From NCBI RefSeq assembly GCF_000003815.2, contig NC_049981.1:33169318-33233317 (forward strand): a stretch of 64,000 bases of DNA. The letters run 5' to 3'. Source of the stretch: Branchiostoma floridae. Lineage: Eukaryota > Chordata > Leptocardii > Amphioxiformes > Branchiostomatidae. This document shows positions 10,234 to 41,144 of the stretch, in pieces. The notes below the pieces were generated by a model. The model searched no databases, was not told the origin of the DNA, and saw only the letters and a list, made by a program, of their open reading frames with translations. The position numbers were made by a program, and so were the translations under genes. The stretch's first letter is position 1. The number at the start of each line of letters is the position of its first letter.

Positions 10234-10289
10234 TCAGTCCGAGTCATCAGCCTCAGCACCCCCGCCCTCCGCTTGGGCACTGCCGCCGT
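10234..10289 (-). CDS. Gene B proposed last exon: acidic tail
   Basis: Acceptor CCCCCGCACAG, then 56 bp encoding GGSAQAEGGGAEADDSD and a stop. The same 56-bp frame with one substitution exists for gene C at 28577-28632. The donor for gene B is hidden in the gap. An unspliced alternative would end the protein a few residues after the glycosyltransferase, as seen for C and D. Confidence 0.5.
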
Positions 10290-13200
10290 CTGTGCGGGGG
10301 TTTAGATTATGAGCAAAATCAGTAGGGAAGGCAACGGATCGAGTATTAAAAAGACGTTTGCCATAGAGAATCTACAGGAATCTAAGAACTTAAATAGCAG
10401 ATGCCGTATGAAAGCTTCTCGCCAACGTCAAACTTAGTCGGGAGTATCAGTTTAGATTTCTAGATACCTAAGTAATGGGTCGTTGGATATAGTCAATATG
10501 CAATAGGCAAAATCATTACTATCATCCGATTGAATAAAACAATAAATTATACGAGGGCGGTTCAAAAAGTAATGCCACTGGTTTTATAACAGGCTCATGT
10601 TTCATCGAATGAGTCAATATGNNNNNNNNNNNNNNNNNNNNNNNNNNNNNNNNNNNNNNNNNNNNNNNNNNNNNNNNNNNNNNNNNNNNNNNNNNNNNNN
10701 NNNNNNNNNNNNNNNNNNNNNNNNNNNNNNNNNNNNNNNNNNNNNNNNNNNNNNNNNNNNNNNNNNNNNNNNNNNNNNNNNNNNNNNNNNNNNNNNNNNN
10801 NNNNNNNNNNNNNNNNNNNNNNNNNNNNNNNNNNNNNNNNNNNNNNNNNNNNNNNNNNNNNNNNNNNNNNNNNNNNNNNNNNNNNNNNNNNNNNNNNNNN
10901 NNNNNNNNNNNNNNNNNNNNNNNNNNNNNNNNNNNNNNNNNNNNNNNNNNNNNNNNNNNNNNNNNNNNNNNNNNNNNNNNNNNNNNNNNNNNNNNNNNNN
11001 NNNNNNNNNNNNNNNNNNNNNNNNNNNNNNNNNNNNNNNNNNNNNNNNNNNNNNNNNNNNNNNNNNNNNNNNNNNNNNNNNNNNNNNNNNNNNNNNNNNN
11101 NNNNNNNNNNNNNNNNNNNNNNNNNNNNNNNNNNNNNNNNNNNNNNNNNNNNNNNNNNNNNNNNNNNNNNNNNNNTACGGAAGCAGGGTGGGTTTGACCC
11201 GGCCGGATCTCAGCTTCTCCTCCAGGATTCTCTTGCTATCCTTGAAGTCGTTCTCATCGATGCCGCGGACTCTCAGCCTCAGTGTGTACTGATTGTCAAG
11301 CCGCTGTGCCGCCATGTCTATGGATCCTGCGGCCAGGTCGTGACCTTTCAGCATCTCCACATTCCGCACCCTGCCGATGGACAGAATAACTCTCTCTGGC
11401 TTTCGGACAGTATCATCTTCAAAGGTCACATTTGCTTCACGGAACACCTTTGAAGGCTCCGGTAGGAAGATGTGGTGAGTCACGTGACGCTGACGGAGGA
11501 ACCTGTCGTAATGGCGGTGAATGCGCGGTCCTACCGAGAAGACGACATCAGCCTTGCCAATGTCGTCCTTGATGCTGGCTTCCTTCCTCCCCACACCCAA
11601 GGCCTTCTCGTCACTCTTGTAGTGCTCTGTCTCCTCTGGTGCCACGTGACCAAACATGGCGAGTTTGGCGTATGGAAATCGCTCTCCCTTAATATTCCTG
11701 GCTGCTCTGCTTGTGACGTCAACATGGCCCACAATGCAGCAGATATCTGATGGGATGTGTGGAAAGTGATGTTTGTGGTACACAGTCAGCCACTCTAAGG
11801 ACGGCTTCGCGCTGCTGTCAGGATGAAGATGAGGCTTGAGGAGTCTCACTCCGTCTCGTTCTGCATCCCTCTCGTCTTGTGGACTTGCCTCCAACACGGT
11901 AGCGTAGACCTTGGCACCCGCGGCGGAGAGCACGCGCGCGGCACTTAGATTAATTGTGGAGATTCCGCCCTTTGACGTGCAGTACTCGTCACTAACCAAC
12001 AGGACTGAAACTCTGGCTGGAATAGAAAGCACAGGTAAACTTCAAATAGATTTCAACTTAGAATTACAAGATAGTTCATACCATTTTGTACTTTTCTTGT
12101 GGTAAAAGTTTTTTTATTCGAGATAGAACTGGAACAATTAAACAATGACAATACAATACAATGACTCCTTAAGAATTTGTCTATATGTCAAAGAAAATGA
12201 GAACTTATACGCCACGTAGTATATCATAATTTTGTGAATAACTATACAAAACTTTGAATACATTGCAGTATAGCCATACTTTGAGTGCTGCAACTACAAC
12301 GTCTCTTTCTGGAAGAAAACATTGGGTGTTTTTTTTTTTCAAAACGATCCCTCCTGATTGCCAAAGATGTTGTCAATAATTTGTGAAGGGAAGGGGAATC
12401 TTAGGTTATTTCCGAGACATTCCTTCCAAACTCTCACCAGTTGAACTTTCCTCTTTCCTTCTTTTAGAGGGCACATCTGCGCCTCTCTGGTCTCTGCCTT
12501 TCAGCTTCTTGCCTGTTGGGAAGACATCAGAAAAAAATCATTTACATCTTTATACATAATTGTAAAGTCGTACGAATTAATTTGGTCCTGATGCCTCACG
12601 CGTATGCATTATAAGTAACGACAAGGAGGAAACAGCTACAGACTAAAAGGGCACTAATTTATTTTTTTTACGTTCAGGCAAACATTAAAGCTCTCCAAGT
12701 TTATAGACAAAGCGTTTTGGGTATCGATGTTCTCACCTTTTGCCGACGTCCGGCTGGACTTCCTCTTCCTGCGGGTGTGAGCGCCTGGCTCTGTGGCACG
12801 TCCGCTATCAGCACGTCTTCCTGCTGGAGGGATATTGTAAACAAGCGTTTCCAGCTTTTGTAACTTTTGGGCTTAAAGTTCTCATCTGGGAAAAACGAAG
12901 CGACATACCGTCTTGCCTTTCGGAAGATCGTGTGCTGTAAATAAGTTATGACAACAACAGGATACAGAGAACAGCCAGTAATAATATTCCAAAGATATAC
13001 AGTTATCACATATATGTTGTGAAACATGATGTTAAATCCTTATATTATCCCCATGTGACACGAGGTTTAATATATACCCACTACGGCTCTACCTGAATTT
13101 TGACAAACAAGAAACACCGAGTAGATTATAACATTTGTTGCTGCATGCCTCACCGAGAGATAAGTAGATAGATAGCTGATGGTTTCATGGATAATACTTA

Positions 13201-16200
13201 AAGATAAGTAAGTAATTAAGTTAGTTACTTATTTCAGAAAAGGCAGTGCTTACAGATGCCTGGATCGTGACCTTCATCTCTCAGGAATGCTGTGCTCGCA
13301 GGCTCAGAGGACAACCCGCTGTCACTCTCACCGCTGTCGGTGTCTGAAAACTGCAGTCGCTGCCCTTTGGGGGGGAAATTGTAGAAGCAGTGATCAAATC
13401 TGGTGTCTCTGGTCTACAGAATCACTAATGTATATGTTCTGATGATGCAATCAGAGTGAAACTCTATTCTCGTGTGACTGTAGCTCAAGACTTGTTTTGC
13501 AAAAACCTTACAAACAGCAACCAATATATGCACCAGTAAACATCGAAGAACGACATTTCTTATTAACCCAAATGTCTCCCTACCTTTGGTGGTGATGAAC
13601 TGACAAACCGTCGTCCCGGCAGCATTCTTCAACAGCATCTTGAACGCCGGCTGATACTTCTTCAATGGCGTAACTTTCTTGAGGTCAACTTCCACCCGAA
13701 ATTTCTTGTAGAACTTGTCCGTCTCCAATGTGTCATAGAAAACGAGACCCTGTGAAAATACCCAGAGATATTTCTTAGATACACATTTCATTTCATGGGC
13801 ATTGATATTGATGCACATGGAATTATAAAATTAAAGTAGCAAAGTTTGATAAACGGGGATGAAAAGAAATACCATCATCAAAAGAACTGGTAAGTACCTC
13901 AGGATTTGTAGGCATTGTGGCGTCTTCTCCGTTTCTGACGGACACCTCAAGCCGATACGTCTCTCCTGACTGCAGCACACACTGGTCCTGATCCCACCTG
14001 ATGTACCCGTCTAACGCTTCCAGATCCTCCAGAGTCTTGATAGATAGGGAAGAGTTCAGTTAGAATCTTAACAAAGCACAGAGATGGAATACAAGCTGAA
14101 ACAGCAAAATCTCATATCCTACTTTTTAAGGAACTAATGTATAACACGCGAAGACACATCTAATTGGCAGGGCTCGGTGCATAGTCACGTACATTTGTGC
14201 ACGCAAAACTAGAGCAGTGAACCTGAATTTTGACAATGGGTGCACCGATCGGTGCTCATATATATTTGTGTAGGGTTACGTACATTACAGCATATTCTTA
14301 AGTCCTCTTTAGTTGTGCGTCCTTTTAATTCTTTTCACCAGTACACCTATTCCCAAAATTAATTTCGAGCCATTGTAAGTAATGGGTTCGACCATTTGAG
14401 CTGAATCCCTCACCTGAAGAGCTACCAGGGCGTTGGAAGCAATGTAGACATGGACTTGACATTCCGGCAAGAAGTTTCGTGGTCCGAACACAACACAAAG
14501 ACCATTCCTTGGATAGAACTTGGCAGCAATCTTCTTCATCACAGGACCAAACAGGCTGCCCTTCTCGAATCTGGTGCAGATGTGGGTTGAAGTGATCGAA
14601 GAGACGGGCAGAAACTCAATTTCACCTCCGACAACATGGACGACCCGCATGTCTGCTAGATTAGCCTCTGAAGTAAGGATTTAAATCACGACAGCCGTTG
14701 TAAAACTGCATCAAATCTATTTAGATTTGCGGGTAATAGTTTGGCGAAAACATGTAGTATTGGCACGAAACGATATGATGATGATCAATGAGAAATTCAT
14801 AATAAAGATAATTAAAGGAAGAAGTCAGGATTGAAATGGTGAATGGCTATAAGTATATACTTCTTTGTAGTTTTGTGGGCCAGAGAAGATATCATTCTGA
14901 AATATATACTGACCAGCATCGTTTGTAACGTGCAGCACGTGCGGCAGCATGATGTCCACCGGCCCCTCCACATCCTCACACTGGATGGAGAAGAGCGGAC
15001 CCACCGGCATCCATCCCTGGTCCTGCTGCCAGTTGTCGGACCAGTTCGCACTCCTGTAGGTCACGTGCAGCGGGTAGGGCGTCACCACGCCCAGGTCGGT
15101 CCGTCTGCACAGGTACTTTCCTTCACCTGGCAGGCGGAGGGACCTGAGGAGATAAACACAGGTATTGTAGCCAGGTGTTCAAACATACAGGTGTGACACG
15201 GCGGGTAGGGCGTCACAATGCCCAGGTCAGACCTTGATACGTTCCAACTTAGCAGAAGTGTATGGCAGATGGACGATGCTTGTTCACATTGGACATGCAG
15301 ATGTAGGATGAACGCCGAACCTGATGACGTATATTGTCTATGTGTCTGTTGGAATTGCTACCAATAAGTTCTGTAATTTCTGTAAATAGAAGAGTAATAT
15401 TTCAATAATAACATTACCACTGTCTTAACGTCTTAAAATTATACCGTATCATTACCATTGCTGGTGGTTGCATGTTCCTAGCTGCATGTTTAAACGGCTA
15501 CTCACCATTCGGTGTCTTCGGTCATCTCAGGACTGATCTCTTGTAACGGCAAGGGATCACGGTAGTCCTGCATATATGTGATATCGGTGTAGCTGATCAT
15601 ATACATGTATGTGGAGGGTTCAGTACCAAGTACAAGAGAATCATACATGTTTATATGTGAATATTCATGTTATTACATTACTAATTACATGTAGGTCTAA
15701 ATAGCGAAATAACAAGTGTGACATCCTGACCATACGTTAGACAAACTCTAAGACATTTCAAATACGACATATCGATCGAGCTCCATCGAGGGAATGGCTA
15801 TCAATGACGTCACTCCTGACTGTGACGTCAGCATCTGAACGTTCTTACAGGCATTATCATTCCTAACAGCGTCATTGAGATAAATCGATATCATCCATTC
15901 GGTTATGGAAATGCGGGCATTGCCCCCCATACCAAAATTCCTGTTTCAGAAATTCTCCTCTCCTGTAATCTGCCACAAAAGTTATACTTTTATTCATCAA
16001 GTATAAAAGAATTCACCTTATACACCCCCTGTACAGCTGCAGCCAGGTCCGGTTTGCCTATGTTCTGCAGTGTTTCCTCCAGCTGCGGCAGGTAGTGGAG
16101 CGGTCCGTGGGGGGTCTTGGTGCGCCACGCCTTCAGCATCTGGAACGCCTGCTGGGTGTCCTTACCAGTTAAGATACCGTACTTCCCATCAATGATGTTG

Positions 16201-19200
16201 TCCAGCACGGCCCTGTTCAGCCCCAGCTCCTGTCCCAGCCGGGTCCACTCCTCACCAACAGCCCTGCTGATCTGGAACAGTCTGTTGTCTGGACAGGAGG
16301 ATGTCATGTATCTTACATAAGAGTTGGCACATTGGGGCACACTTGAAGTAATAGTACTTTTTAAACATTAGAGGTGAGCAGGAGTATTTTTCAAAGTGAA
16401 TCTGTGACATTAAGATAAGATAGAGTCGAAAATAAGATGAAGAAACAATTACGGTAACTGAGTGATGCCTTTATCTATTATGTATCCACTATGTAGTATA
16501 TATCTAAGACCTACTTTTCTTACGCGCGTAAAAAGCAATAATGTCCCTTAATTACTCTAGATAAAGACGCATGTCGTACTTACCGATGAAATATTTGCCG
16601 ATGACGTCCTCAGGCGTTTTGACGTCAGTAATATTAAGTGGCCGTTCCCAGTTTCCTTCCGACATTCTCAACAAGTCACCCGGCACGTGACGCCTCACAG
16701 CTTCTATAGTGAGCGACTTTGTTGTTTCTCCGCTTCCAACACTGTTACTGAAGTACAAGGCAGGAAACTCGTCCCAACAGGCCTCCATCACCTTCGCTAC
16801 CGTCTGAACCTGGCGCCACGCCTTCTCCGGCTCTCCCCGGATCCGGATTTCTTCTCTTGTAGGGAAATGGCGGTACATGACGTCTTCTGAGTTCTCTCCA
16901 ACATGAACGACAACTGTGTCCTTGGTGAGGAGGCTGCGTGTGGTCTGCTCCATGGACAGGATACGGGAGACCATGGTTTCCGGTAGACCCAGAGGCGGCT
17001 CTTGGCTGTACTCTGTAGTAACAGAGATCTCCTCTCCGCCTGATGGCACAACCTCTGGCCAGCAGCGCGTCACCTCGTCAGGCTGGGCGGCAGGAAGCTC
17101 TGTTGGAAAGATCACCGACCCTGAGTAACACAGGCCGAAGTGCTTCATCAGGGGAAGAAGACTGTTGAAGGTGGCAATGTTGTCTCCAAGCAGGTTCTTC
17201 ATGAAACTGTCGCTTGCCCTGCCCGTCTTCAGGAAGGACGACCTGTCTTCAGCAAACTGCGCTCGGGTATGTTCAGAGAGAGACTCGGCTATGTTGTCCA
17301 GATATGCCGATAGGTCATGCCTGAAAATCTGCTTGAAGAGTGTGAGGATGATGGTTGGGTCCGGGAAGACCAGATCTTCCATCCCCCTGATGTGGTTGTA
17401 GAACAGGATCTGTCCGGTCACGTGCAGATAGCTGAGCGCGTTCAGGACGTCTGACTCCTTCATCCCTGCAGCTGCTCCGACGTCCTGACAATCCCTGACA
17501 TGAAGGTACGGCCGTCCTGAAGTCTTGATGTTTTCTGTCAGTTTGGTCCAGGAAGTCGGCAGCTCTTGGCGGGCAGCAGGGAACAATCGCTCGTCCTTCA
17601 CCATTTCTGCCATCTTGTCGCACAGAGCTTCGATACCCTGGAACGTCTTGCTGCTGACCGGGATAACCTGCACGTTTAACAGACCTTTGGGTCGTCCGTC
17701 AAGTAACTTCTCCAGTGACACTTTCTTGGCCAAGATGTCGTCTCTAGTGAGACCGTAGAAATGTCCAGTCAGGTTTGATCCACCGTTCGCTGTATCCACC
17801 GCCTTCTGACAGAGTTGAATCTCTTCGTTCAGCTTGGTTTGTATTTTACTCTCAGCGGCCTGGATGTCTCTCTGGATGGAGGAACAAGCTGCTGCTATCA
17901 TCTCCTCGGCCTTGTCTGGCGGGAACAGGTCGACTTTGGTCCCTACAACAAGGATAGCCGGGTTGAACACGTGGGAAGTCACGGATGTTAGCCACGTTCC
18001 CACTCGTTCCTGGAACTCTTCAGACTTGTATCCTGGCAGGTCTACATTGAGGATGTGCAGGGCCTGACGTGTCAGGAAGAACCGGTGCGTGTAGTGGTAG
18101 ATCTGGTGACCTCCGAAGTCGTACATCTCGTACTTGACGTTATTCTTGGTGTCATGGTACGTGATGACGTCAACACCTATGGTCCTGTCAGTTTCAGCCT
18201 CCACGTGACCTTGACCCTTCATCATACAGTTGAGCAGACTGGTCTTCCCTGCCTCCGTCTGTCCCAGAATCACACACTTGACTTCGGAAGGTGTTGTGGT
18301 GTGTGTGTGCGCACGCGCGTCGGGATAACGTAGGTGTTTCTGCATCATATCTACAGCAGAACGGTTACATAAAGTATGATTACTATATTACACCACTAAT
18401 TTATCACACCAAAAATTATAACTGCCGACGTTAAATAACTAATTTCTAACTGATTTCACCAAACTGCCGACGTTCACCGTTAGGTGGCCATCTATCACCT
18501 GTTTCATCAGGTGGCAATTTCCACCTGATGAAAAACTTCGCGTACTGCAGATAGTACACAGACGTCTGACATAAAATTGGTTGTTACCTCTAATATAAAT
18601 TACTGCTTCCCTCTTTCAAATCACAATGTAATTGGCCCGATTTTTAGATGTAACAAGAAATGTAGCAGGAAATGAAATAGAATTAGTCAAATGATGACTT
18701 AATTTCCCCCAAACGAGTATAATTTCCAACCGCAACATTAAATGTATTTACAGTACATATCCTAATTCATACATGGATGGAAACTAGAAAAATAACATAC
18801 TGTCTATCGGTAGCATGTTGTGTATTGATATCTAGAAAATAACATGAGATCCTTGTTCTGCCTACCTTGACCTTGCTGTGCGAAATTTTCCCTCTGCACC
18901 GTTTGCTGACCAGGCTGTGCCGCCTGCTGTTCCCCGATGCCGAAGTACCGCTCCCAGTCCCGCTCCTGTTCCTCCATCTCCTCCGCCAGGAAGTCCTGTC
19001 CTTCCTCCCGCAGGACCCGCACTAACCAGTCGTACGGCTCCTGCCGACTCCTGACAAACAGCAGCATCCTTACCAACCGCTCCCCCCTGCTGACTGGTGT
19101 AGGCTCCGCCTGGGGGAGGGAACATCGGCAGGGTGGTTTCATACATATACTTTTGTATTTTCATCCTTTATCTGTGCCTGTTAGGTTTTGATTCTGGGGG

Positions 19201-22200
19201 GAGGGAAAATCCTGGCAGGGATGGTGTGACCTTAGACCAACAACTGGTAGATAGTTTTGTACTACTGTTATTGTGTGCTTCCTCTGTGCACGTTGGTTGT
19301 CAGCGTTTTAACAGAGAGTGTTAAGAATTGAACTAGATAAGTTTATACATGTTCCCATGCAAGATGTGTTACTCCTATACAAGTATATGCCAATCGTTGC
19401 TGCTCGATACAATTTCATTTCTCAATATCACACTATTTCTTTCAAATTTTGTCAAATAAACAATAAATAAAAGATATCCAGTGCGAATCATCACCTTGTG
19501 GTAGACAATTAATACAATAACCCCAGTCATCCATAAACTAAGTAACACACATTTTTTCTACATCGGAACATCATCTCATAATGTAATGTACCTAAACGTG
19601 GTATGTACCATGTATTCTGTACATAGCACGTATTTCAGTAGGTACTGCATTTTGTAGTAGACTGATCTAGACTATATTTTACCACATTGTTAGAACATGT
19701 AAGTTGAATAATGAATTATATTCTCAAGAATGAAACCTTCATGTGACAGACCCATGCGGCAACTTTCATTATTTCGTTCTTCTAGTCTTCGTGAACCGTG
19801 TAAAAACAAGCTGCACAAGGTCTGCTGGGTTAGAGCAGAGTGCTGAGCTAAGTACACCGGTATGGGTTACTAAAGGAAAATTCACGCTTTACTCGATATA
19901 AAGAGTAGACACCTGTAGGCACGTCTGTAGTGTATCGGGTTGCGGCTCCGAAACATATATTTTCGTTGTTTCCCAAGCAGTGCGTGCGGCTGCAGCTCAT
20001 GCACATGGTGACCATTATGTGAACAGAGATGGGCGATGGGGAGCGTGTCGAAAGCCAATACAAAGTTTACTAATGGGAGGTACTCAGGTATTGACTGTGT
20101 AGCGAGCTCGAGAGACAGGAGTGGAGACGGGCGATGGCGGGCATATCCAAAGCTATTACAAATTTACAACTGGGAGGTACTGACTGTGGGGCGAGCTCAG
20201 GAGACAGGCGGTGCTAGGTATGGCGTTCAATACAACATAATGCAACAACAGGGGCTCCTTTTGCATACCTAACTTTTATATAGACGAATACAACCTATTA
20301 TGACTTCCACCTTAATGGCAGAAGAGACGGATCTATGCACACGTGTCATTCCAGTACAATGCACACGTTGGGGGGCTAATAATGGAAGCCCTGGTCGTTA
20401 CTTGATATGGCAATAGTAGAAACATATGGTGTTGTGTGTTGGGAACCTCCGAAACAAAACTTATTCAGAGTTTTCTTTCGTCAGTGTGTGCTGCCGTGTG
20501 TGAAATTTTGTTAAATACAAATCAGGACGGGCATATTGAAAGCCAATAACGCTGTGTGAATGTGATGTACATGTGGCAATGATGCTGTTATCCAGACTCT
20601 GATCATGACAATTGTCGGTTCCATCGTTTACCTTACCTGGATATCCCGGACATCAGCCGGACTCAGCTGGTTCGCCTGTTCCAGCCGTGTGAGAACAGCT
20701 GGGAGGTTCATGTTGTCAGCCAGGAACGTGCGAGTGGTGTCCAAGGCCTCCCGGCACGGCACCCTCAGTTCACCTGTGGAGATGGACAGACAAACGGCAC
20801 ACGTCAGTCTAACGGGGTCGGTCTACATGTACGTTAGGGACACCGTGTTAATTCACAAAGTATCTGAATGTCTATCATTAATTACTACAATAAAATACAT
20901 ACACGACAATACTACATGTTCTTCAAACGAAACAAACGTAGCATCTATTCTGCAGGAGCAGCTATTATTATGTTGTAAGCCTTCAATCAGTGCAAAAAAG
21001 AGGCTGCAAATTGCATTTCGGTTAAAAAGTTGTCCACATATTTAAGCAAAGACATCCCAATAGTTTTTCTCAGTGTTCATATGAGTGTAGTATGTAATAG
21101 ATTTATGTTATAAGCAAGCAGTCTGTTCAAACATTTTGGATTTGTTTCACATTGTACACTGTGTTTCTTTGAGTATTTCATATCCCTAGATCTACATCTA
21201 TTGTTATGTTTTAAGTTTAATTCTACCATGTAGCTAGTTGTCTTATACAATATACCTATGTTCGCCTTACATTGTACCTGTTTTACAAATGTTGCGCAAT
21301 AAACCTTGACTTGACTTGACTATCAGATGAAAATGACTTAAATACATCACAGTCCGCTGATTACATTATGTCCCAGCCATGACATGTCCACCCTCACCTG
21401 TTTGTCTGCAGAGCGCGTCACGCACATCATAGGCGATGCCTAACATCCACCTGACACTACTGCCGGGCATCGTCTCCTCAACCCTGTCCCGCTGGACCCG
21501 TCTGGCCGGCGCCTCCAGGGTTGGGTACTGCCGGCTGACGTGCCGAACTCACGGAAGTCATCCTTGTTCTGGTCCAGCCAAATGACGTACCTAGGCTTGT
21601 TGTTCCTCACGACAGTTTCCAGTCCGACCGTGAGCGAGGACTGGTCAGCAAGCAGGTGTCTGCTGATCACGGGCACGACAAGTTTCACGCTGCCGAGGGT
21701 CAGTGTGGACGTGAGCTGTGCGCGGCTGACGTCACCAGGAGTGCCTGTGACCTGCTGACAGGAGATGTCTGTCTGGAATAGATCGCCCCAGCCCAGACCC
21801 ATCAGCTTCTCCACCAGCCTCCTGACGAACTCCCCATCCTCTGCTGCGTGCAGGAGGACAACACAAGGACCTGGTAGGGAACAACAGCATCGCAATGGCA
21901 ATATGTTTAATTCAAGCATATTTCAAAAGTGCGAATATCTATATCATGCTATTGTTAAGAATGTCCCACGCGTATAGAAACTAGGCCAGACAATCTTATT
22001 TAAAAGTTAACCTAACCAATCCTAGTGCCTAGATGTAAGCTACTAATACAAGTAAAAGTACCTAAACCAGCCAGCCAGAATTTGAAAATGTTAAAATAAA
22101 AGTATTGCACGATAGAAAGGCTCATCCTGAGGAAAAATGGACAAAATGTTGAAATCTCATTTTACCGGTATTTATGATATGCTGATATATTAGTCATTAA

Positions 22201-22384: not shown

Positions 22385-22397
22385 AGTGATTGACAGA

Positions 22398-22405
22398 TGA
22401 CGTCA
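22398..22405. promoter_or_regulatory. CRE/ATF-type site upstream of gene B start
   Basis: A perfect TGACGTCA palindrome lies 14 bp upstream of the ATG, the same spacing as in A and C. Function is inferred. Confidence 0.45.
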
Positions 22406-22703
22406 TATAAGTGCTCCGTTTCAGACTCCCGATCTGAAGCTAAGAGACGGACAGACGACATCCCAGACTGCGGAGTTATACTGAGGGGACAGGTAAACAG
22501 GACCGTTATGGATGTCATTTTCCTTTTCTCAAAAAGTAGTGCCATGTAGGGTCAAAGTTGATGTACTTTAGTGTAAATTGCTCACTACGATAGCGCTACG
22601 TCACGAGGAAAGCTCTGTCACATTTCTACTCATTCGATGAGTATTGTTGACTTTACTTGTTAACAGATGTAAACCGTCCAGGCAGCTAAAATCAGGAGAA
22701 ACC

Positions 22704-24352: not shown

Positions 24353-24427
<75 letters not shown>

Positions 24428-28550: not shown

Positions 28551-28576
28551 GAGTGGTCTCTGGTGACGCCAGATCT

Positions 28577-28632
28577 TCAGTCCGAGTCACCAGCCTCAGC
28601 ACCTCCACCCTCCGCTTGGGCACTGCCGCCGT
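28577..28632 (-). CDS. Gene C proposed last exon: acidic tail
   Basis: 56 bp after acceptor CCCCCGCACAG: GGSAQAEGGGAEAGDSD and stop. Paired with 10234-10289 of gene B (one residue differs). In frame if the donor at 29099 is used. Confidence 0.5.
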
Positions 28633-31600: not shown

Positions 31601-34600
31601 TTGGCGAAACATGATGTTAAATACCTCTATTATCCCTAGTGTGACACGGGGGGGGGGGGGATATACGACTCTGTCTGAATTTTGACAACCCAAACAAATG
31701 AAACACCGAGTAAGATTGTAAGATTATAATATTCGTCGCTGTATGTCACTCCGAGAGATAAATAGATAGACACATAGATGATGGTTGGGACAATACTGAA
31801 GATAAGGACATAACCAAGTTAACAAGGATTTAACAAAAGACAGTGCTTACAGATGCCTGGTTCGTGACCTCCATATTCTTGGAATGCTGTGCTCGCAGGT
31901 TCAGAGGACAACCCGCTGTCGCTCTCATCGCTGTCGGTGTCTAAAAACTGCAGTCGTTGTCCTTTTGGGGGAAATGTTCAGAAAACTGGTGACTCTGGTC
32001 TATGTAAGAGATCACTTCTGATAATGCAGTCAAAAATATATAATCTTGTGTGGTGCAAGTTCGAGAATTGTTTTGCAATAACCTTTGTAAAAACACCACC
32101 AAAATATGCAGCAACAAAATATCAAAGAACGACGAACGACTTTTCGTATTGATCCAAATGTTGTTGACAGCCGTCTCTCTACTCTTATCTCTTCTCTAGT
32201 TCGAGACGTCTTTTGTATTAATCTTAAAAACAACAACAAAAATATGTTGTTATATCGACTTTCCTTATTGACCAAATGTTGTTGACAGTCTCCCTACCTT
32301 TGGTGGTGATGAACTGACAAACCGGCGTCCCGGCAGCATTCTTCAGCAGCATCTTGAACGCCGGCTGATACTTCTTCAATGACTTAACTTTCTTGAGGTC
32401 AACTTCAACCCGAAATTTCTTGTAGAACTTGTCCGTCTCCAAAGTATCGTAGAATATGAGACCCTGTAAAAAAGACCGAGAGGTACTGCTAAGATGCATT
32501 CAACTATGTTCATAGAAGACGAGTGTAATTTTGTATTCTTGACTGTTCACTATACAACAATGAGAGAAAAATCTTCTTCAACAGTGTACCAGATAAGTTT
32601 CCATGATTTCGATATTTAGATAGCACAGACAATTACGTTCTTCATAGATGAACCAAATATTTTAATCTCCATCTGACTTTACATGAAGTTGAAGTCTTAG
32701 TTATATATCACACCCTTACACCAATTGTACTTATTATCACTGGGAACTGTATTCTATTCACCTTGACCTGTACTTAGCTTCGTAGAGAGCATAAACGTGC
32801 AGCAAAGGTCTTCATTATCATTTTATCACCATTAATGCAAATTTGCATGGTATTGGCAATGGAACACAGTTAGGTGAACAGAGGGGGAAAGAAAATAAGA
32901 TTATCGTACAGACTGGTGAGTACCTCGGGATTTGTAGGCATTGTCAACTCCTCTCCGTTTCTGACGGACACCTCGAGACGATACGTCTCTCCTGACTGCA
33001 GCACACACTGGTCCTGATCCCACCTGATGTACCCGTCTAACGCTTCCAGATCCTCCAGAGTCTTGATAGATAGGGAAGAGTTCAGTTAGAATCTTAACAA
33101 AGCACAGAGATGGAATACAAGCTGAAACAGCAAAATCTCATATCCTACTTTTTAAGGAACTAATGTATAACACGCGAAGACACATCTAATTGGCAGGGCT
33201 CGGTGCATAGTCACGTACATTTGTGCACGCAAAACTAGAGCAGTGAACCTGAATTTTGACAATGCGTGCACCGATCGGTGCTCATATATATTTGTGTAGG
33301 GTTACGTACATTACAGCATATTCTTAAGTACTCTTTAGTTGTGCGTTCTTTTAATTCTTTTCACCAGTACACCTATTCCCAAAATTAATTTCGAGCCATT
33401 GTAGGTAATGGGTTCGACCATTCGAGCTGAATCCCTCACCTGAAGAGCTACCAGGGCGTTGGAAGCAATGTAGACATGGACTTGACATTCCGGCAAGAAG
33501 TTTCGTGGTCCGAACACAACACAAAGACCGTTCCTTGGATAGAACTTGGCGGCAATCTTCTTCATCACAGGACCAAACAGGCTGCCTTTCTCGAATCTGG
33601 TGCAGATGTGGTTTGAAGTGATCGAAGAGACGGGTAGAAACTCAATTTCACCGCCGACAACATGGACAACCCGCATGTCTGCTAGATCAGCCTCTGAAGT
33701 AAGGATTTAAATCACGACAGCCGTTGTAAAACTGCATCAAATCTATTTAGATTTGCGGGTAAAAGTTTGGCGAAAACATGCAGTATTGGCACGAAACGAT
33801 ATGATGATGATCAATGAGAAATTCATAATAAAGGTAATTAAAAGAAGAAATCAGGATTGAAATGGTGAATGGCTATAAGTATATACTTCTTCGTAGTGTT
33901 GTGTGCCAGAGAAGATATCATTCTGAAATATATACTGACCAGCATCGTTTGTAACGTGCAGCACGTGCGGCAGTAGGATGTCCACCGGCCCCTCCACGTC
34001 CTCACACTGGATGGAGAAGAGCGGACCCACCGGCATCCATCCCTGGCCCTGCTGCCAGTTGTCGGACCAGTTCGCACTCCTGTAGGTCACGTGCAGCGGG
34101 TAGGGCGTCACCACGACCAGGTCGGTCCGTCTGCACAGGTACTTACCTTCACCTGGCAGGCGGAGGGACCTGAGGAGATAAACACAGGTATTGTACCCAG
34201 GTGTTCAAACATATAGGAGTTTCACAGCGGGTAGGGCGTCACAATGCCCAGGTCAGACCTAGATACGTTCCAACTTAGCAGTAGTGTATGGCAGATGAAC
34301 GGTGCTTGTTCACATTGGACATGCAGATGTAACAGACTAGGATGAACGCCAAACCTGATGACGTGTATTGTCTATGTGTCTGTTGGAATAGCTGCCAATG
34401 AGTTCTGTAAATAGTTCTGTAAATAGAAGAGTAATACTGCAATGATAACATTACCACTGTATTAACGCCTTAAAATGATACCGTATCAAAGTGAAGTGAT
34501 GACGTACCATTACCATTGCTGGTGGTTGCCTGATCATGGCTGCATGTTAAAATAGTTACTCACCATTCGGTGTCTCCGGTCATCTCAGGACTGATCTCTT

Positions 34601-37600
34601 GTGACGGCAAGGCATCACGGTACTCCTGTATATATGGGATATCGGTGTAGCTTCATATACATGTGGAGAGTCCAAGAGAATCATACATGTATATATATGA
34701 ATATTCATGTTATTATATGACTAATTAAATGTAGGTCTAATTAGCAAAATAAGAAGTGTGACATCCTGACCATCCGTTAGACAAACATTTCAAATACGAC
34801 ATATAGATCGAGCTCCATCGAAGGGAATGACTATTAGTGACGTCACTCCTGACTGTGACGTTAGCATCGGAACGTTTTTATTACTTTTATGATTCCTAAA
34901 AATGTCATTAAGATAAATCGCTATCATTCAGTCTGTTATGGAAATACGGAAATTGGCACAAAACAAAAATTCCAGTATGAGAAATTCTCCTATCCTGTAA
35001 TCTGCCACAGAAGTTATACTTCATGCATCAAGTATAAGATGATTAACTTCATGCATCAAGTATTAGATGATCACATGAGCACCAGAGCCAACCACTCTCA
35101 CAAATACCGAACCCTACGATGTAGGTGTGACACAGCAAAGTATGCCTACTACGACAGGACAATTCCTGAATGGAACAGGCTCTCCGCCCACATTGTCGAC
35201 AGCCCCACACTGGACACTTTCAAGAACAGGTTGCTGTCATCGCATACGTAGTCCAGCCGCTGCGCCTCCTCCATCCGCGTGATATTCCTATGGGAAGTTT
35301 GCGGATTACGAACTAGAACTAGAACTAGAACCTTATATATCCCTTGTATAAGAAAAGTCACCTTATACATCCCCTGTACATCTGCAGCCAGGTCCGGTTC
35401 GCCCATGTTCTGCAGTGTTTCCTCCAGCTGCGGCAGGTAGTGGAGCGGTCCGTGGGGGGTCTTGGTGCGCCACGCCTTCAGCATCTGGAACGCCTTCTGG
35501 ATGTCCCCGATTCCCGAAATGTTGTCCAGCACGGCCCTGTTCAGCCCCAGCTCCTGTCCCAGTCGGGTCCACAGCTGCTCCTCCTCACCAACAGCCCTGC
35601 TGATCTGGTACAGTCGGTTGTCTGGACAGGAGGACATCAAGACAAAAATAGTCATGTATCTTACATAAGAGTTGGCACATTGGGGCACACTTGAAGTAAT
35701 CGCACTCTAAAAACATTACGAGTGAGCAAGGGTATTTTTCAAAAGGAATGTAAATGGCTCAGGGACATTAAGATAAGATAGAGTCGAAAATAAGATAAAG
35801 AAACAATTACGGTAACTGAGTGATGGAATTATAGCATTTTCTCATTAATTATGCAAATTTGGTCATTTGCATAATTTCCATCAATCAATGTTTTCCTGGA
35901 CAGGAGGACACCAACACGAAAATAGTCACGTATCTTACATAAGAGTTGGCACATTGGGGCTCACTTGAAGCAATAGCATGCTAGCACTTAAGGATATTAG
36001 GAGTGAGCAGGGGTATTTTTCAAGGTCAATATAAATGGGCTCAGAATTCAGGGACATTTAAATGAGAAGATAGAGCTGAAAATGAGATAAAGAACAATTA
36101 CGTTGAATAAGTCAATAATTTATCTATTATGTATCCACTATGTAGTATATATCTAAGCACTACTTACCTTACAAGCGTAAAAAAAACAATGATGTTCCTT
36201 CGATTACTCTAGATAAAGACGCCTGTCGTACTTACCGATGAAATATTTGCCAATGACGTCATCCGGCGTTCTGACGTCAGGAATATCGAGTGGCCGTTCC
36301 CAGCTTCCTTCAGACATCCTCAACAAGTCACCCGGCACGTGACGCCTCACAGCCTCTATAGTGAGCGACTTTGTTGTTTCTCCGCTTCCAACACTGTTAC
36401 TGAAGTACAAGGCAGGAAACTCGTCCCAACAGGCCTCCATCACCTTCACTACCGTCTGAGCCTGGCGCCACGCCTTCTCCGGCTCTCCCCGGATCCGGAT
36501 TTCTTCTCTTGTAGGGAAATGGCGGTACATGACGTCTTCTGCGTTCTCTCCAACATGAACGACAACTGTGTCCTTGGTGAGGAGACGGCGTGTGGTCTGC
36601 TCCATGGACAGGATACGGGAGACCATGGTTTCCGGTAGACCCAGAGGAGGCTCTTGGCTGTACTCTATAGTAACAGAGATCTCCTCTCCGCCTGATGGCA
36701 CAGCCTCTGGCCAGCAGCGCGCCACCTCGTCAGGCTGGGCGGCAGGAAGCTCTGTTGGAAAGATCACCGACCCTGAGTAACACAGGCCGAAGTGCTTCAT
36801 CAGGGGAAGGAGACTGCTGAAGGTAGAAATGTTGTCTCCAAGCAGGTTCTTCATGAAACTGTCGCTTGCCCTCCCCGTCTTCAGAAAGGACGCCCTGTCT
36901 TCAGCAAACTGCGCTCTCGTGTGCTCAGAGAGAGACTCGGCTATGCTGTCCAGATATGCCGGTAGGTCATGCCTGAAGATCTGCTTGAAGAGTGTGAGGA
37001 TGATAGTTGGGTCGGGGAAGACCAGATCTTCCATCCCCCTGATGTGGTTGTAGAACAGGATCTGTCCGGCCACGTGCAGATAGCTGAGCGCGTTCAGAAC
37101 GTCTGACTCATTCATCCCTGCAGCTGCTCCAACGTCCTGACAATCCCTGACATGAAGGTACGGCCGTCCTGAAGTCTTGATGTTTTCTGACAGTTTCGTC
37201 CAGGAAGTCGGCAGCTCTTGGCGGGCAGCAGGGAACAATCGCTCGTCCTTCACCATTTCTGCCATCTTGTCGCACAGAGCTTCGATACCCTGGAACGTCT
37301 TGCTGCTGACCGGGATAACCTGTACGTTTAACAGGCCTTTGGGCCGTCCGTCAAGTAACTTCTCCAGTGACTCTTTCTTGGCCAATATGTCGTCTCTTGT
37401 GAGACCGTAGAAAGGTCCGGTCAGGTCTGATCCGCCGTCCGCTACATCCACCGCCTTCTGACAGAGTTGTATCTCTTCTTTCAGCTTGGTTTGTATTTTA
37501 CTCTCAGCGGCCTGGATGTCTCTCTGGATGGAGGAACAAGCTGCTGCTATCATCTCCTCGGCCTTGTCTGGCGGGAACAGGTCGACTTTGGTTCCTACAA

Positions 37601-40600
37601 CAAGGATAGCCGGGTTGAACACGTGGGAAGTCACGGATGTTAGCCACGTTCCCACTCGTTCCTGGAACTCTTCTGACTTGTATCCTGGCAGGTCTACATT
37701 GAGGATGTGCAGGGCCTGACGTGTCAGGAAGAACCGGTGCGTGTAGTGGTAGATCTGGTGACCTCCGAAGTCGTACATCTCGTACTTGACGTTATTCTTG
37801 GTGTCATGGTAAGTGATGACGTCAACACCGATGGTTCTGTCAGTTTCAGCCTCCACGTGACCTTGACCCTTCATCATACAGTTGAGCAGACTGGTCTTCC
37901 CTGCCTCCGTCTGTCCCAGAATCACACACTTGACTTCGAAAGGTGTTGTGGCCTGTGTGCGCGCATGCGCGTCGGGATGACGTAGATGTTTCTGCATCAT
38001 TTCTACAGCAGAATGGTTACATAAAGTATGATTAATATATCAAACAACGTACTATAACTAATCCTACCAAACAGTTATAACTGCCGACGTTTAGGTGGTC
38101 GTCTTTCAACCTGATGAAACTATTCGCGTACTGCACACAGACGTCGGACAAAAAATTGATTTCTTCTAAGATAAATCACCCCTCTTTCAAAGCATAATAT
38201 AATTGACCTGATTTTTAGATGTGACAAAAAATGTACCGGGAAATAAGATTAGTCAAATGATGATTTGATTTCCCCAAAACGCTATAATTTCCAACCGCAA
38301 CATTAAGTGGATTTACAGTACATAGCCTAATTCATACGTGGTGAGAACTAGAAAATTATATACTGTCGATCAGTAGTATATTGTGTATTGATATCCGAGT
38401 AGAAAATAAGATAAGATCCTAGTTGTGCCGACCTTGAGTTTGCCGTGTGAAATGTGCCCTCTGTGCGGTTTGTTGACCAGGTTGTGCCGCCTGCTGTTCC
38501 CCGATGCCGTAGAGCCGCTCCTCCTCCCGCTCCCGTTCCTCCATCTCCTCCGCCAGGAAGTCCTGTCCTTCCTCCCGCAGGACCCGCACTAACCAGTCGT
38601 ACGGCTCCTGACGCATCCTGTTCTCCAGCATGTATACCAACCGCTCCCCCCTGCTGACTGGTGTCGGCTCCGCCTGGGGGAGGGAACATCGGCAGGGTGG
38701 TTTCATATATATACTTTTGTATTTTCATCCTTTATCTGTGCCTGTTAGGTTATGATCCTGGGGGGAGGGAAAATCGGCAGGTATAGCGAGCTCGAGAGAC
38801 AGGAGTGAACAGGAGTGGAGAAGGGCGATGGCGGGCATATCTAAGATCATCCAAAGCTATTACAAACTTTACAACTGGGAGGTACTGACTGTGGGGCGAG
38901 CTCAGGAGACAGGCCGTGTTAGGTATGGCGTTCAATACAACATAATGCAACAACAGGGGCCCCTTTTGTATACCTAACTTTTATATAGATGAATACAACT
39001 TATAATGACTGTCACCTTTATGGCAGAAGAGACGGATCTATGCACACGTGTCATACCAGTACAATGCACACGTTAGGGGCTAATACTGGAAGCCTTGGCG
39101 TTTACTTGATATGGTAATAGTAGAAACATATCATAACATATTTTGTTGTGTGTTGGGAACCTCCGAAACAAAACTTATTCAGAGTTTACTTTCGTCAGAA
39201 GTGTGTGCTGCCGCGGAACATGTAGTGAAATTTTGTTAAATACAAATTAGGACGGGCATATTGAAAGCCAATATATCATAGTATATGTGGCAGTGATGCT
39301 GTTATTCAAACTCTGACAATTGTCGCTTCCACCCTGTACCTTACCTGGATATCCCGGAGCTCAGCCGGACTCAGCTGGTTCTCCTGTTCCAGCCGTGTAA
39401 GAACAGCTGGGAGGTTCATGTTGTCAGACAGGAACGCACCGGTGTATAACAGCGCCTTCCCGCACGGGAGCCTCAGTTCACCTGTGGAGATGGGCAGACA
39501 AACGGCACACGTCAGTCTAACTTGGTTCGGTCTACATGTATGTTAGGGACACCGTGTTAATTCACAAAGTACCTGAATGTTTATCATTAATTACTTCAAT
39601 AAAATACATACACGACAACACTACATGTTCTTCAAACGAAACAAACGTAGCATCAAACTCTGCAGGAGCAGCTATTATCATTTTGTAAGCCTTCAATCAG
39701 TGCAAAAAAGAGGCTGCAAATTGCATTTCGGTTAAAAAGCTGTCCACATATTTAAGCAAAGACATCTCAATAGTTCTTCTCGGTGTTCATATGAGTGTAG
39801 TATGTACTAGATGTTATAAGCAAGTAGTCTGTTCAAACATTCTGGATTTGTTTCACATTGTACACTGTGTTTCTTTCAGTATTTCATATCCCTAAATCTA
39901 CATCTATTGTTATGTTTTAAGTTTAATTCTACCATTTAGCTGGTTGTCTTATGCAATATACATATCTTTGCCTTACATTGTACCTGTTTTACAAATTTTG
40001 CGCAATAAATGTTGACTTGACTTGACTATCAGATGAAAATGACTTAAATACATCACAGTCCGCTGATTACATTATGTCCCAGCCATGAAATGTCCACCCT
40101 CACCTGTTTGTCTGCAGAGCGCGTCACGCACATCCCAGGCGATACCTTCTATCCCACTGTAACCACTGCCGGGCATCCACTCCTCAACCCTGTCCCGCTG
40201 GACCCGCCTGGCCGGCTCCTCCAGGGTTGGGTACTGCCGGCTGACTAACGTGCCGAACTCACGGAAGTCATCCTTGTTCTGGTCCAGCCAAATGACGTAC
40301 CGAGGCTTGTTGTTCCTCACGGCAGTTTCCAGTCCGACCGTGAGCGAGGACTGGTCAGCAAGCAGGTGTCTGCTGATCACGGGCACGACAAGTTTCACGC
40401 TGCCGAGGGTCAGTGTGGACGTGAGCTGTGCGCGGCTGACGTCACCAGGAGTGTCTGTGACCTGCTGACAGGAGATGTCTGTCTGGGGTAGATTGTAACC
40501 CCAGCCCAGACTCACACCCAGCTTCTCCACCAGCCTCCTGACGAACTCCCCATCCTCTGCTGCGTGCAGGAGGACAACATAAGGACCTGATAAGGAACAA

Positions 40601-41144
40601 CAAGGTCACAATAAAATGTTTAATTCAATCATATTACAAAAGTGCGAATATTTATATCATACTGTTGTTAAGAATGTGCCGCGCGTATAGAAACTAGGTA
40701 CGACAATCTTATCTAAAAGTTAACCTAACCAATCCTAGTACCTAGACATAAGATAATAAGTAAAAAGAACCTAAACCACCCAAACAAAATTTGGGGAAAA
40801 TGAAAGTAAAGGAAAAATGGATACAATGCTGAAATCTCATTTCACCGGTATTCATGATATGTTGATATACTTTCTTAAGTCATTTATGGTGAAATCAAGA
40901 CATAAGCAATGCCACATAGTAAAAGCTTGTCAATGACAGGAACAGTGTAACCTCGGACCTAAATATATCAAATTTTAACATGATCATCCAAGACTATCAG
41001 CGCTGAAAGATAAAAGCCATTGTAAACCAAAGGTCTTTGAAGTAAAAATGACCAATGTTACTCACATGACTATTAGCACTGAAAGATAAATCCATTGTAA
41101 ACACTTTGAAGTGAAAGTGACCAATATAACTCACCTGTTTCCAT
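28577..41144 (-). CDS. Gene C: full-length TIR-CARD-ROCO-Death-ZU5/UPA-NLS-glycosyltransferase
   Basis: Most complete unit. Exons: 41135-41144, 40104-40586, 39345-39481, 38433-38673, 36236-38002, 35362-35621, 34564-34625, 33940-34169, 33440-33693, 32924-33061, 32298-32463, 31851-31961, 30881-31351, 30582-30656, 29100-30160 (with a 100-N gap), 28577-28632. Phases fit at every junction, with no stop or frameshift in the visible sequence. Approximate residues: TIR 1-164, CARD 165-290, Roc-COR 291-879, Death 880-966, ZU5/UPA 987-1249, acidic linker 1250-1286, repeats and basic linker 1287-1468, glycosyltransferase 1469-1878, tail to about 1896. I infer a receptor or scaffold in which GTP switching and death-fold assembly control a glycosyltransferase effector. 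No transcript evidence is available here. Confidence 0.83.
29100..30160 (-). CDS. Gene C exon 15: GT-B glycosyltransferase (internal gap)
   Basis: Begins RVSVLLVSDEYCTSKGGIST after acceptor TATTCCAG, followed by the same motifs as gene B (GHVDVTSRAAR, FGHVAPEETEHY, SIGRVRNVERLKGHDLAAG). The 100-N gap at 29337-29436 hides an estimated 270 bp, including the E-x7-E loop. The C-terminal part after the gap (KWADRIEDVLKKSKSEFAEA, YWEESHQRFLQACGI) matches gene D. It either splices at A-GTAAGAAC to the tail exon or stops at 29086. Confidence 0.88.
29337..29436. other. Assembly gap (100 N) in gene C glycosyltransferase
   Basis: Placeholder gap. Alignment to gene D (53466-53736) predicts about 270 missing bases. 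Confidence 0.95.
30582..30656 (-). CDS. Gene C exon 14: basic linker, NLS-like
   Basis: 75 bp identical to gene B: GKKLKGRDQRGADV, then PSKRRKEESST. Lies in the tract that is identical between B and C. Confidence 0.72.
30881..31351 (-). CDS. Gene C exon 13: seven 19-residue Ser/Arg/Ala repeats
   Basis: 471 bp, phase 1 to 1, against 87 bp in gene B. In the spliced frame it encodes units such as HSSRSSAHPDSGRAAEPAA, seven times with small changes (R/H, S/R, H/P), ending TRRKRKSSRTSAK. The DNA unit is 57 bp, so length changes keep the frame. The sequence is open in several other frames on both strands; the spliced frame is chosen because it alone joins the basic exon and the glycosyltransferase. 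Low complexity, probably disordered. Confidence 0.72.
30910..31315. repeat. 57-bp coding minisatellite (7 units)
   Basis: Units contain GGGCAGAGCTCCTGC(T/G)GG and GTGTCTGGA or CTGTCTGGA blocks on the plus strand. One unit only in gene B (12737-12823). Confidence 0.9.
31851..31961 (-). CDS. Gene C exon 12: acidic linker with DSGLSS
   Basis: 111 bp: GQRLQFLDTDSDESDSGLSS, then EPASTAFQEYGGHEPGI. More acidic than gene B. Phase 1 to 1. Confidence 0.7.
32298..32463 (-). CDS. Gene C exon 11: UPA-like segment 2
   Basis: 166 bp: GLIFYDTLETDKFYKKFRVE, LKKYQPAFKMLLKNAAG and CQFITTKG. Confidence 0.7.
32924..33061 (-). CDS. Gene C exon 10: UPA-like segment 1
   Basis: 138 bp, phase 0: TLEDLEALDGYIRWDQDQC, SGETYRLEVSVRNGEEL and TMPTNPE. 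Confidence 0.7.
33440..33693 (-). CDS. Gene C exon 9: second FIIND-like segment
   Basis: 254 bp, nearly identical to gene B: VVHVVGGEIEFLPVSSI, RFEKGSLFGPVMKKIAAKF and VHVYIASNALVALQ. The intron that follows carries the perfect palindrome GCACCGATCGGTGC (33268-33281), also present in B. Confidence 0.72.
33940..34169 (-). CDS. Gene C exon 8: ZU5 domain (FIIND-like, first half)
   Basis: 230 bp encoding the same protein as gene B here, with a few changes (VDILLPHVLHV). A synonymous GGA to GGT change creates GAAGGTAAGTAC inside the exon, a perfect donor consensus that gene B lacks. Confidence 0.78.
34564..34625 (-). CDS. Gene C exon 7: linker into ZU5
   Basis: 62 bp encoding EYRDALPSQEISPEMTGDTE, with W across the junction. 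Keeps I-S-P-E. Confidence 0.72.
35040..35332 (+). mobile_element. 5'-truncated LINE, C-terminal RT tail
   Basis: The frame RCDTAKYAYYDRTIPEWNRL, then DSPTLDTFKNRLLSS, ends in a stop. This is the usual C-terminus of CR1/L2-like reverse transcriptase ORFs ('fp+ti.eWN.Lp...v...sl..Fk..l'). The 3' end carries repeated AACTAG units. It sits in the intron between Death and ZU5 linker exons of gene C and is absent from gene B. Confidence 0.75.
35362..35621 (-). CDS. Gene C exon 6: Death domain
   Basis: 260 bp encoding ISRAVGEEEQLWTRLGQELG, AFQMLKAWRTKTPHG and LPQLEETLQNMGEPDLAADV. It has two extra residues before the helix-2 Trp and a shorter inter-helix loop than gene B. Length still keeps phase 0. 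Confidence 0.92.
35625..36095. repeat. Tandem duplication in gene C intron around a hairpin
   Basis: The block at 35625-35825, which includes the Death-exon acceptor CTGGACAGGAGG (plus strand), is repeated at 35896-36095. Between them sits a palindromic piece, TGATGGAA...ATGCAAAT/ATTTGCAT...TTCCATCA (35821-35885). Gene B has one copy. A decoy 3' splice site results. Confidence 0.65.
36236..38002 (-). CDS. Gene C exon 5: Roc GTPase + COR domain (ROCO family)
   Basis: 1,767 bp, exactly the length in gene B. Roc motifs: GQTEAGKTSLL (P-loop), DFGGH and GTKVD. COR signatures: LSYLHVAGQILFYNH, DPTIILTLFKQIFRHDL and LMKHFGLCYSG. The end TRE-EIRIRGEPEKAW to YFIG leads into the Death domain exon. It probably dimerises through COR and cycles GTP/GDP as in other ROCO proteins. 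Confidence 0.92.
38433..38673 (-). CDS. Gene C exon 4: CARD C-terminal half
   Basis: 241 bp encoding RGERLVYMLENRM, RQEPYDWLVRVLREEGQDFL and AEEMEE. The donor is GTCGGC where A and B have GTAGGC, a weaker match at +3. Confidence 0.72.
39345..39481 (-). CDS. Gene C exon 3: CARD, N-terminal half
   Basis: 137 bp encoding GELRLPCGKALLYTGAFL, then NMNLPAVLTRLEQENQLSPA and ELRDIQ. CARD helices 1-3. Same length and phases as A and B. Confidence 0.75.
39790..40028 (+). repeat. Old retroposon 3' tail in gene C intron
   Basis: Ends GCGCAATAAATGTTGACTTG with a second CTTGA unit, at the same place as in A and B. Confidence 0.55.
40104..40586 (-). CDS. Gene C exon 2: TIR-like domain (intact)
   Basis: 483 bp, phase 1 to 1. 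It shares CVVLLHAAEDGEFVRRL-type strand A (first residue region Y-V-V-L-L), VPVISRHLLADQSSLTVGLE and YVIWLDQNKDDF with gene A. It keeps the LVSRQYPTLEEPARRVQRD segment that is lost by frameshift in gene B. It is one codon longer than in gene A. Confidence 0.7.
41135..41144 (-). CDS. Gene C exon 1 (start, 10 coding bases)
   Basis: ATG GAA ACA G then GTGAGTTA, identical to gene B. Confidence 0.7.

Follow-up and report, generated by a model that had tools for sequence, protein, structure and literature searches.

A tandem lancelet gene family that would join Roc-COR, Death and FIIND domains to a GT4-conflict glycosyltransferase

In bacteria, glycosyltransferases of the GT4-conflict family are predicted to act as immune effectors; the family has expanded in some marine animals, where the question is how such an enzyme would be controlled. 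This question is raised by a 64-kb window of the Branchiostoma floridae genome (contig NC_049981.1, positions 33,169,318 to 33,233,317; the window is the whole 64,000-nucleotide stretch analyzed, and all coordinates below refer to it). The window contains four tandem units, A to D, all on the minus strand and spaced by ~17.4 and ~18.7 kb, that between them carry exons for immune and death-fold domains as well as for such an enzyme. Does one unit encode one protein, and what would hold its enzyme in check?

Judging from its sequence, unit C is likely one gene. We favor, with moderate confidence, the reading that this gene encodes a GTP-switched immune or cell-death scaffold with a glycosyltransferase output; from the N-terminus, its parts would be TIR-like, CARD, Roc-COR, Death, ZU5-UPA (FIIND), variable linker, and GT4-conflict glycosyltransferase. 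A first-pass annotation of this DNA had proposed a GTPase-gated signalling hub with an enzymatic output, perhaps glycosylation of a target. A multidomain immune or death protein with a glycosyltransferase output still reads best, and its enzyme comes from a family of proposed conflict effectors, whereas the gate, the target, and the nuclear address are what we infer.

The exon chain of unit C and its neighbors

Units B and C are whole in extent, A is truncated by the left window edge, and D consists of a 3' part alone. Unit C runs on the minus strand from 41144 to 28577 and comprises 16 exons, assigned from domains and comparison with unit B, and 15 introns, every one of them GT...AG. Exons 1 to 15 form a single open frame of 1702 codons with matching phases, from METG up to a 100-N assembly gap, the frame being unreadable across the gap itself. 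On the 3' side of the gap, 78 open codons run to 29100, and the phase there is continued by the tail exon, which we located via the deposited protein models P0006 and P0008 (P numbers denote such models). The protein would thus have ~1.9 thousand residues: 1702 before the gap, ~91 in it by analogy with D, 78 after it, and a short tail. The exons of unit C, all on the minus strand, are as follows.

41135..41144, minus: exon 1, ATG GAA ACA G (MET-G), with an in-frame stop 7 codons upstream, as in unit B
40104..40586, minus: TIR-like exon, TIR_2 weak in three of four sequences
39345..39481, minus: CARD exon a, CARD above cut-off in the relatives P0122 and P0124
38433..38673, minus: CARD exon b, donor gtcggc a poor fit to consensus (B donor gtaggc, better)
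36236..38002, minus: ROCO exon (Roc GTPase plus COR), from Pfam, omega 0.26 versus B
35362..35621, minus: Death domain exon, from Pfam
34564..34625, minus: linking exon E7 (EYRDALPS...MTGDTE), its internal Met being the start of some published models
33940..34169, minus: ZU5 exon a, FIIND match
33440..33693, minus: ZU5 exon b, with the His and the G/S site aligned to CARD8, omega 0.10
32924..33061, minus: UPA exon a, from profile alignment and the relatives' Pfam matches
32298..32463, minus: UPA exon b, from profile alignment and the relatives' Pfam matches
31851..31940, minus: acidic/Ser linker exon E12, similar to a stretch of P0006 (72% over 25 residues)
30881..31351, minus: linker exon E13, ~7 copies of a 57-bp repeat and a basic end
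30582..30656, minus: basic linker exon E14 (KKLKGRDQ...SKRRKEE), identical to B
29100..30160, minus: GT4-conflict glycosyltransferase exon, with the 100-N gap at 29337-29436
28577..28632, minus: last exon (GGSAQAEGGGAEAGDSD, then stop), found from P0006 and P0008

The region marked in the first-pass annotation has its ends explained by these assignments, 41144 being the ATG of C and 10234 the stop of B. Its claim of GT-AG junctions with matching phases is borne out for C, where the frame is open to the gap. B had been presented as a second example equal to C; there the claim fails, as a frameshift in the TIR exon (473 nucleotides in B versus 483 in C) stops the frame inside the exon at 21443 and halts the reading of B from TIR. 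The Branchiostoma belcheri model P0124 has METG at the same place, yet its start is set 47 residues earlier. Two alternatives in C were rejected. An alternative acceptor for E12 broke the frame, which stays open with the acceptor that B also has. An extra open stretch (~35300-35152), tried as an exon, lies outside the B-C DNA match (35037-35346 is unmatched) and misfits the phase of the Death donor. The other units are laid out as follows.

10234..22384, minus: unit B, whole, same exon chain as C
Unit B exons 1 to 8, minus: 22384-22375, 21870-21398, 20773-20637, 19109-18866, 18350-16584, 16288-16017, 15567-15506, 15143-14914
Unit B exons 9 to 16, minus: 14667-14414, 14035-13898, 13749-13584, 13343-13254, 12823-12737, 12512-12438, 12016 to the gap, tail 10289-10234
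322..5263, minus: unit A, 5' part, with ATG at 5263, TIR 4431-3952, CARDa 3354-3218, CARDb 561-322
52544..56356, minus: unit D, 3' part, with truncated ZU5a from 56356, ZU5b ~56061-55804, UPA ~55688-55202, linker ~54993-54883, gap-free glycosyltransferase ~54454-53219, and a CaaX-like tail exon to 52544

Upstream of D, Death and ROCO were not found within the window; its ZU5a exon lacks the second half, and its glycosyltransferase matches B. floridae LOC118411879 (P0001) at 99.5% identity over 384 residues. C, B, and A each have a palindrome, TGACGTCA, immediately 5' of their start codons (41130-41185, 22370-22425, and 5240-5300), which we take to be a CRE/ATF-type site. A 2-kb stretch of A (878-2870) is 98.4% identical to one at C (41471-43463) and missing at the matching B site; it resembles a recent mobile insertion or exchange, and the sole open reading frame (ORF) scanned there (41404-41769) had no Pfam match.

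Domains of the predicted protein

When Pfam profiles were run on the spliced C product, the domain list proposed from the letters stood in part: Roc, Death, FIIND, and GT4-conflict exceeded their cut-offs, whereas COR-A and CARD fell under theirs and TIR was unlisted. Roc scored 62.8 bits (cut-off 27) over the full profile (1-119), Death 26.4 bits (cut-off 22.6), and FIIND 104.9 bits (cut-off 25.8). COR-A reached 31.3 bits in C, under its cut-off of 35.3; among the relatives it was over in P0129 (36.3) and under in P0122, P0126, and P0128 (33.6, 33.5, and 35.2). CARD scored 15.4 bits in C, under its cut-off of 23.9, and was above it in P0122 (24.0 bits) and P0124 (24.6 bits). The ROCO exon matched LRRK2 Roc structures, and distant lancelet relatives carry the names MFHAS1 or MFHAS1 homologue. 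PADLOC matched the ROCO exon weakly to LeoA and returned nothing for the D glycosyltransferase or the A TIR ORF. In the C protein, NACHT was not among the 14 Pfam families listed at E up to 1, and kinase and LRR had no Pfam match.

For the segment that we call TIR-like, TIR_2 in C alone gave an E of 0.2 and 12.6 bits against a cut-off of 28, and Pfam listed no TIR for the whole C protein or the whole P0124. Compared with the PDB at E up to 10, the segment had two matches in all, both to TIR proteins (E of 1.5 and 1.6). None of the alignments extended to the part of a TIR domain that carries the catalytic Glu of the NADase. The structure model of the TIR exon (pLDDT 35.5) was uninformative.

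The C-terminal enzyme, of a bacterial type, is a member of the published "GT4 in conflict systems" family (PF20706, cut-off 26), with 126.4 bits in C over the part before the gap and 281.2 bits in D. The glycosyltransferase exons are interrupted by 554 N in B and 100 N in C, and these gaps cover the stretch (~91 residues) where D has its active-site/EX7E region. The D sequence contains EPFGLVGLE, a form of the EX7E motif that we take to be the catalytic motif of the glycosyltransferase, and the pattern EXFGX4E is found in 115 of 121 GT4 proteins (P0001-P0120 plus P0142).

The linkers and tails that surround the enzyme vary. In E13, an array of ~7 units of a 57-bp repeat (30911-31308) is present in C, and the exon measures 87 nucleotides in B. 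Both units have a basic linker (RRKRK..., KKLKG..., SKRRK...), presumably resembling a nuclear localization signal (NLS), with a loose counterpart in P0006. The first-pass annotation treated this linker as a family feature, which it is not, since no comparable basic stretch occurs in D, P0003, or P0005. The D tail exon (window 53059-52544) ends in CCRRCPHGACSVL, with a relic near 51762-51685, and this form of tail recurs in P0004, P0010, and P0001, the last being the model deposited for D itself. We assume that its CSVL end fits a CaaX prenylation box, so that a lipid-anchored glycosyltransferase in D is possible.

Within the FIIND, the UPA half was less readily matched: UPA-FIIND scored 24.7 bits in P0003 and 16.3 in P0006, both under the cut-off of 27, and was not listed for C. 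The FIIND profile alignment extends beyond the CARD8 cleavage site, to residue 421. The structure model of P0003 shows strands at 141-270, with pLDDT of 70-87 in 12 of 13 blocks and 55 in one. A profile built from six lancelet FIINDs matched CARD8 at 2.3e-9 and the NLRP1 chains 7crw (7.9e-8) and 6x6c (0.0043).

Would this FIIND cleave itself? His270 of CARD8 aligns with His in all six lancelet sequences and Ser297 with Ser in five of the six (Thr in P0142), and Glu279 is replaced by Leu or Met; we take positions 270 and 279 to be the catalytic His and Glu. An SF/S or HF/S motif is absent, and the lancelet sequences read KG/S(T) there, with Gly for the P1 Phe296 in all six and Lys for Ser295. 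SEA domains self-cleave at Gly-Ser. In CARD8, according to the passages on cleavage in PMC3210808, a conserved Glu and a conserved His are important, S297A abolishes cleavage, and F296H is severely defective. Given Gly in place of the P1 Phe, the replacement of Glu279, and the effects of F296H in CARD8, canonical FIIND self-cleavage is doubtful from the alignment.

Just upstream of ZU5a, a partial copy of the start of this exon is found at ~34263-34180 (C), 15237-15150 (B), and 56462-56390 (D). The end of P0122 matches the partial copy and then the true exon in another frame. The partial copy might provide an alternative 3' end or be what makes annotations break here.

Constraint, mechanism, and rival explanations

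Comparison of B with C gave low omega values for ROCO (0.26), ZU5b (0.10), the two UPA exons (0.19 and 0.16), and the glycosyltransferase (0.36), and 0.38 for the total without TIR. Constraint was weaker in ZU5a (0.44), Death (0.61), and E12 (0.62), and E7 had 4 replacement and 0 silent differences in 20 codons. For TIR, omega was 0.93 between C and A, the B-C value taking in the frameshifted part of B. CARDa gave 0.72, 0.64, and 1.38, and CARDb gave 1.08 (B-C), 0.70 (B-A), and 6.2 (C-A, with one synonymous difference). Altogether, omega of the TIR and CARD exons lay between 0.6 and 1.4 in eight of nine pairs and was 6.2 in the ninth. The low values for ROCO, FIIND, and the glycosyltransferase and the values near 1 for TIR and CARD indicate a fast-changing N-terminal end on a protein whose switch, FIIND, and enzyme are held; the rapid change could reflect either positive selection or loosened constraint. 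The lengths of 4 of 14 exons differ between B and C, 3 of them by a multiple of 3, as against 10 of 14 introns, again 3 by a multiple of 3 (these are small numbers). Exon E14 and the introns E13-E14 and E14-GT (645 bp) show zero differences between B and C (12736-12017, 30880-30161), while the remaining introns that align diverge by 1 to 18%; this points to gene conversion or exchange in the recent past.

In the scaffold that we favor, partners would be contacted through the Death domain and through the rapidly evolving TIR/CARD end, the Roc-COR unit would act as a GTP-driven switch, and the FIIND would hold back or present the C-terminal enzyme. Upon a trigger, the glycosyltransferase would modify an invader or host target. 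In a more specific form of this mechanism, which we consider possible but would not expect, the FIIND gates a glycosyltransferase that is released and re-addressed. The ZU5-UPA region would cut itself at the Gly-Ser bond, as SEA domains do, or be cut or pulled apart; in a parallel to CARD8 and NLRP1, UPA-linker-GT4 would be set free once the N-terminal half, TIR-CARD-ROCO-Death-ZU5, is lost, and the NLS-like linker of B and C might then direct the enzyme to the nucleus and the CaaX-like lipid tail of D to a membrane. If true, the gating would be of the inflammasome style, but its output would be an enzyme in place of a CARD.

The case for a single gene draws on deposited models of other copies and species, which together cover most of the chain with overlaps. 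TIR-CARD-Roc stands in one model in P0124 and in P0125, P0122 reads CARD-ROCO-Death-E7-ZU5a and P0121 ROCO-Death-E7-ZU5a, P0003, P0005, and P0008 read E7/ZU5-UPA-GT4, and P0006 reads ZU5-UPA-GT4. In a subfamily that is ~40% identical, P0126, P0128, and P0129 are Roc-Death-FIIND proteins with a COR-A match (above cut-off only in P0129). P0142 is FIIND-FIIND-GT4, and its residues 3-161 are 86% identical to residues 878-1037 of P0126, in the FIIND part. Could each unit nevertheless consist of two neighboring genes, TIR-CARD-ROCO-Death and FIIND-GT4, that lie close together on one strand and look joined through freely chosen splice sites? The deposited models do split here, as P0121 and P0122 end in ZU5 and P0003, P0005, and P0008 begin at MTGDTEW in E7, and the partial ZU5a copy upstream in B, C, and D could serve as an alternative 3' end. 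However, P0121 and P0122 cross E7 into ZU5a and so overlap the first residues of P0003 and P0005, the Met of MTGDT is preceded by an open frame joined from Death, a break within ZU5 would split one domain, and the distant subfamily (P0126, P0128, P0129) has Death-FIIND in single models. With P0121 and P0122 ending, and P0006 beginning, inside ZU5, split models fit better than true gene ends. Residues 722-746 of P0121 match D at 56060-55986 with 100% identity in a frame other than that of ZU5b; by this match, gene D seems to be represented by P0121 and P0001 together, with the split between them at the truncated ZU5a exon. We thus regard two genes per unit as unlikely.

Several observations weigh against a single full-length protein. 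P0121 and P0123 have their starts at the ROCO exon or shortly before it, P0002 starts inside UPA, and P0001, P0004, P0007, and P0009 start just before or inside the glycosyltransferase (P0010 is partial); such starts would fit separate genes in those copies. Outside B and C, no relative crosses the E12-E13 junction, the UPAb-E12 junction is crossed weakly, and E13-E14 is crossed by poor matches alone, at best 6 of 16 residues; the junction between exon 1 and TIR could not be scored in this test. The TIR assignment is weak, with TIR_2 in three of four sequences and a best E of 0.003, and two of the four copies carry lesions. Lastly, no full-order model was found among deposited proteins of up to 733, 1069, and 1827 residues (~8000 candidates each), an absence that says little given these limits on length and candidates, the C protein itself exceeding the largest length covered. 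Because the search with P0126 missed even P0121 and P0122, the lack of longer models there means little as well.

The lesions bear on a different explanation, that of a decaying tandem array in which most, perhaps all, copies are pseudogenes or partial and the full-length product is not made. It would account for the TIR frameshift of B, the truncated ZU5a of D, the high omega of the TIR and CARD exons, and the out-of-frame reading of the D ZU5b by P0121. We nonetheless find it quite unlikely, given that ROCO, ZU5b, UPA, and the glycosyltransferase are constrained between B and C, that C is free of stops up to the gap, and that B. floridae, B. lanceolatum, and a B. floridae x japonicum assembly all have FIIND-GT4 models. 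Of the units whose condition can be assessed, C alone looks intact. As for the enzyme, it might be metabolic, an ordinary GT4 sugar transferase tethered to the scaffold. The best fold matches of the glycosyltransferase in the P0003 model are glycogen synthase, BshA, and MshA, and an effector activity is so far a prediction. Yet GT4-conflict is the best family, with 281 bits in D versus 70 for the general group 1 glycosyltransferase family. In addition, the best 120 of 149 matches include lancelet and hemichordate proteins in which the enzyme is joined to Death, DED, CARD, OTU, LRR, ankyrin, TRADD-N, and Roc domains, forming a large family of shuffled architectures. A metabolic role therefore seems very unlikely to us.

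Relation to known systems

The enzyme and its immune company are already known, and the family occurs in other immune fusions of corals and lancelets. GT4 is a proposed effector of bacterial conflict systems in the text of Kaur et al. 2021 (PMC8195603), which also counts more than 500 GT4 paralogues for Acropora and describes proteins of the GT4-TRADD-N type from cephalochordates, hemichordates, and cnidarians. These systems share with the lancelet unit the type of glycosyltransferase and its C-terminal effector position; the order TIR-like-CARD-Roc-COR-Death-FIIND-GT4 does not appear in the parts of that paper's text that were compared, its architecture figure and source data being outside the comparison. 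In work from 2013, as described in part of PMC4083563, an animal immune NTPase switch is joined to a group 1 glycosyltransferase, and many of the loci lie in pairs or triplets. That system resembles ours in combining such a switch with such an enzyme in an animal and differs in its switch, which is NACHT/NB-ARC and not Roc-COR; FIIND is not mentioned in that part of the source. Glycosyltransferase and FIIND are both among the NLR domains named in a figure legend of PMC11508797. The main text of PMC2575513, on novel amphioxus immune genes, does not contain the words glycosyl, ROC, COR, FIIND, or ZU5. A search of open-licence PMC articles, covering listings and passages of text apart from figures and supplements, turned up no description of the full lancelet chain and did not contradict the first-pass annotation, to which no described protein with this order was known.

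A genome scan gave 80 loci that were kept, of which the best-scoring lies in Amycolatopsis anabasis (L001, 4-5383; GT4-conflict, 418 bits). It encodes an HTH-NB-ARC-TPR-GT4 (STAND-TPR-GT4) protein and is the only locus to match residues 9-411 of the query, the other 79 matching its second half or less. The GT4 gene adjoins a divergent TIR-NB-ARC gene, in which the NB-ARC match is below cut-off.

Among animal proteins, MFHAS1, DAPK1, and LRRK2 have Roc, and probably COR, in common with C, which differs from these ROCO proteins in having no kinase or LRR by Pfam and in having Roc-COR flanked by death-fold domains and a FIIND. NLRP1 and CARD8 have a FIIND with ZU5 and UPA, as C has for ZU5 and probably for UPA; in them UPA is followed by CARD, whereas in C it is followed by the glycosyltransferase, and no NACHT was found in C. 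An NLRP1-type inflammasome was accordingly rejected as a home for C, NACHT and the P1 Phe both being absent. The FIIND of C is thus joined to an output outside the death fold, which bears on the role of FIIND before NLRP1 and CARD8. As both a GTPase switch and a FIIND would immediately precede the enzyme, the switch, the release, and the enzyme would be testable in one protein. If confirmed, this protein would connect an animal immune switch to an enzyme without any intermediary. In the text of PMC8195603, GT4 and TIR are among the domains at the C-terminus of bacterial AP-GTPase-COR proteins, and through these bacterial Roc-COR proteins the lancelet gene would link prokaryotic and animal immunity.

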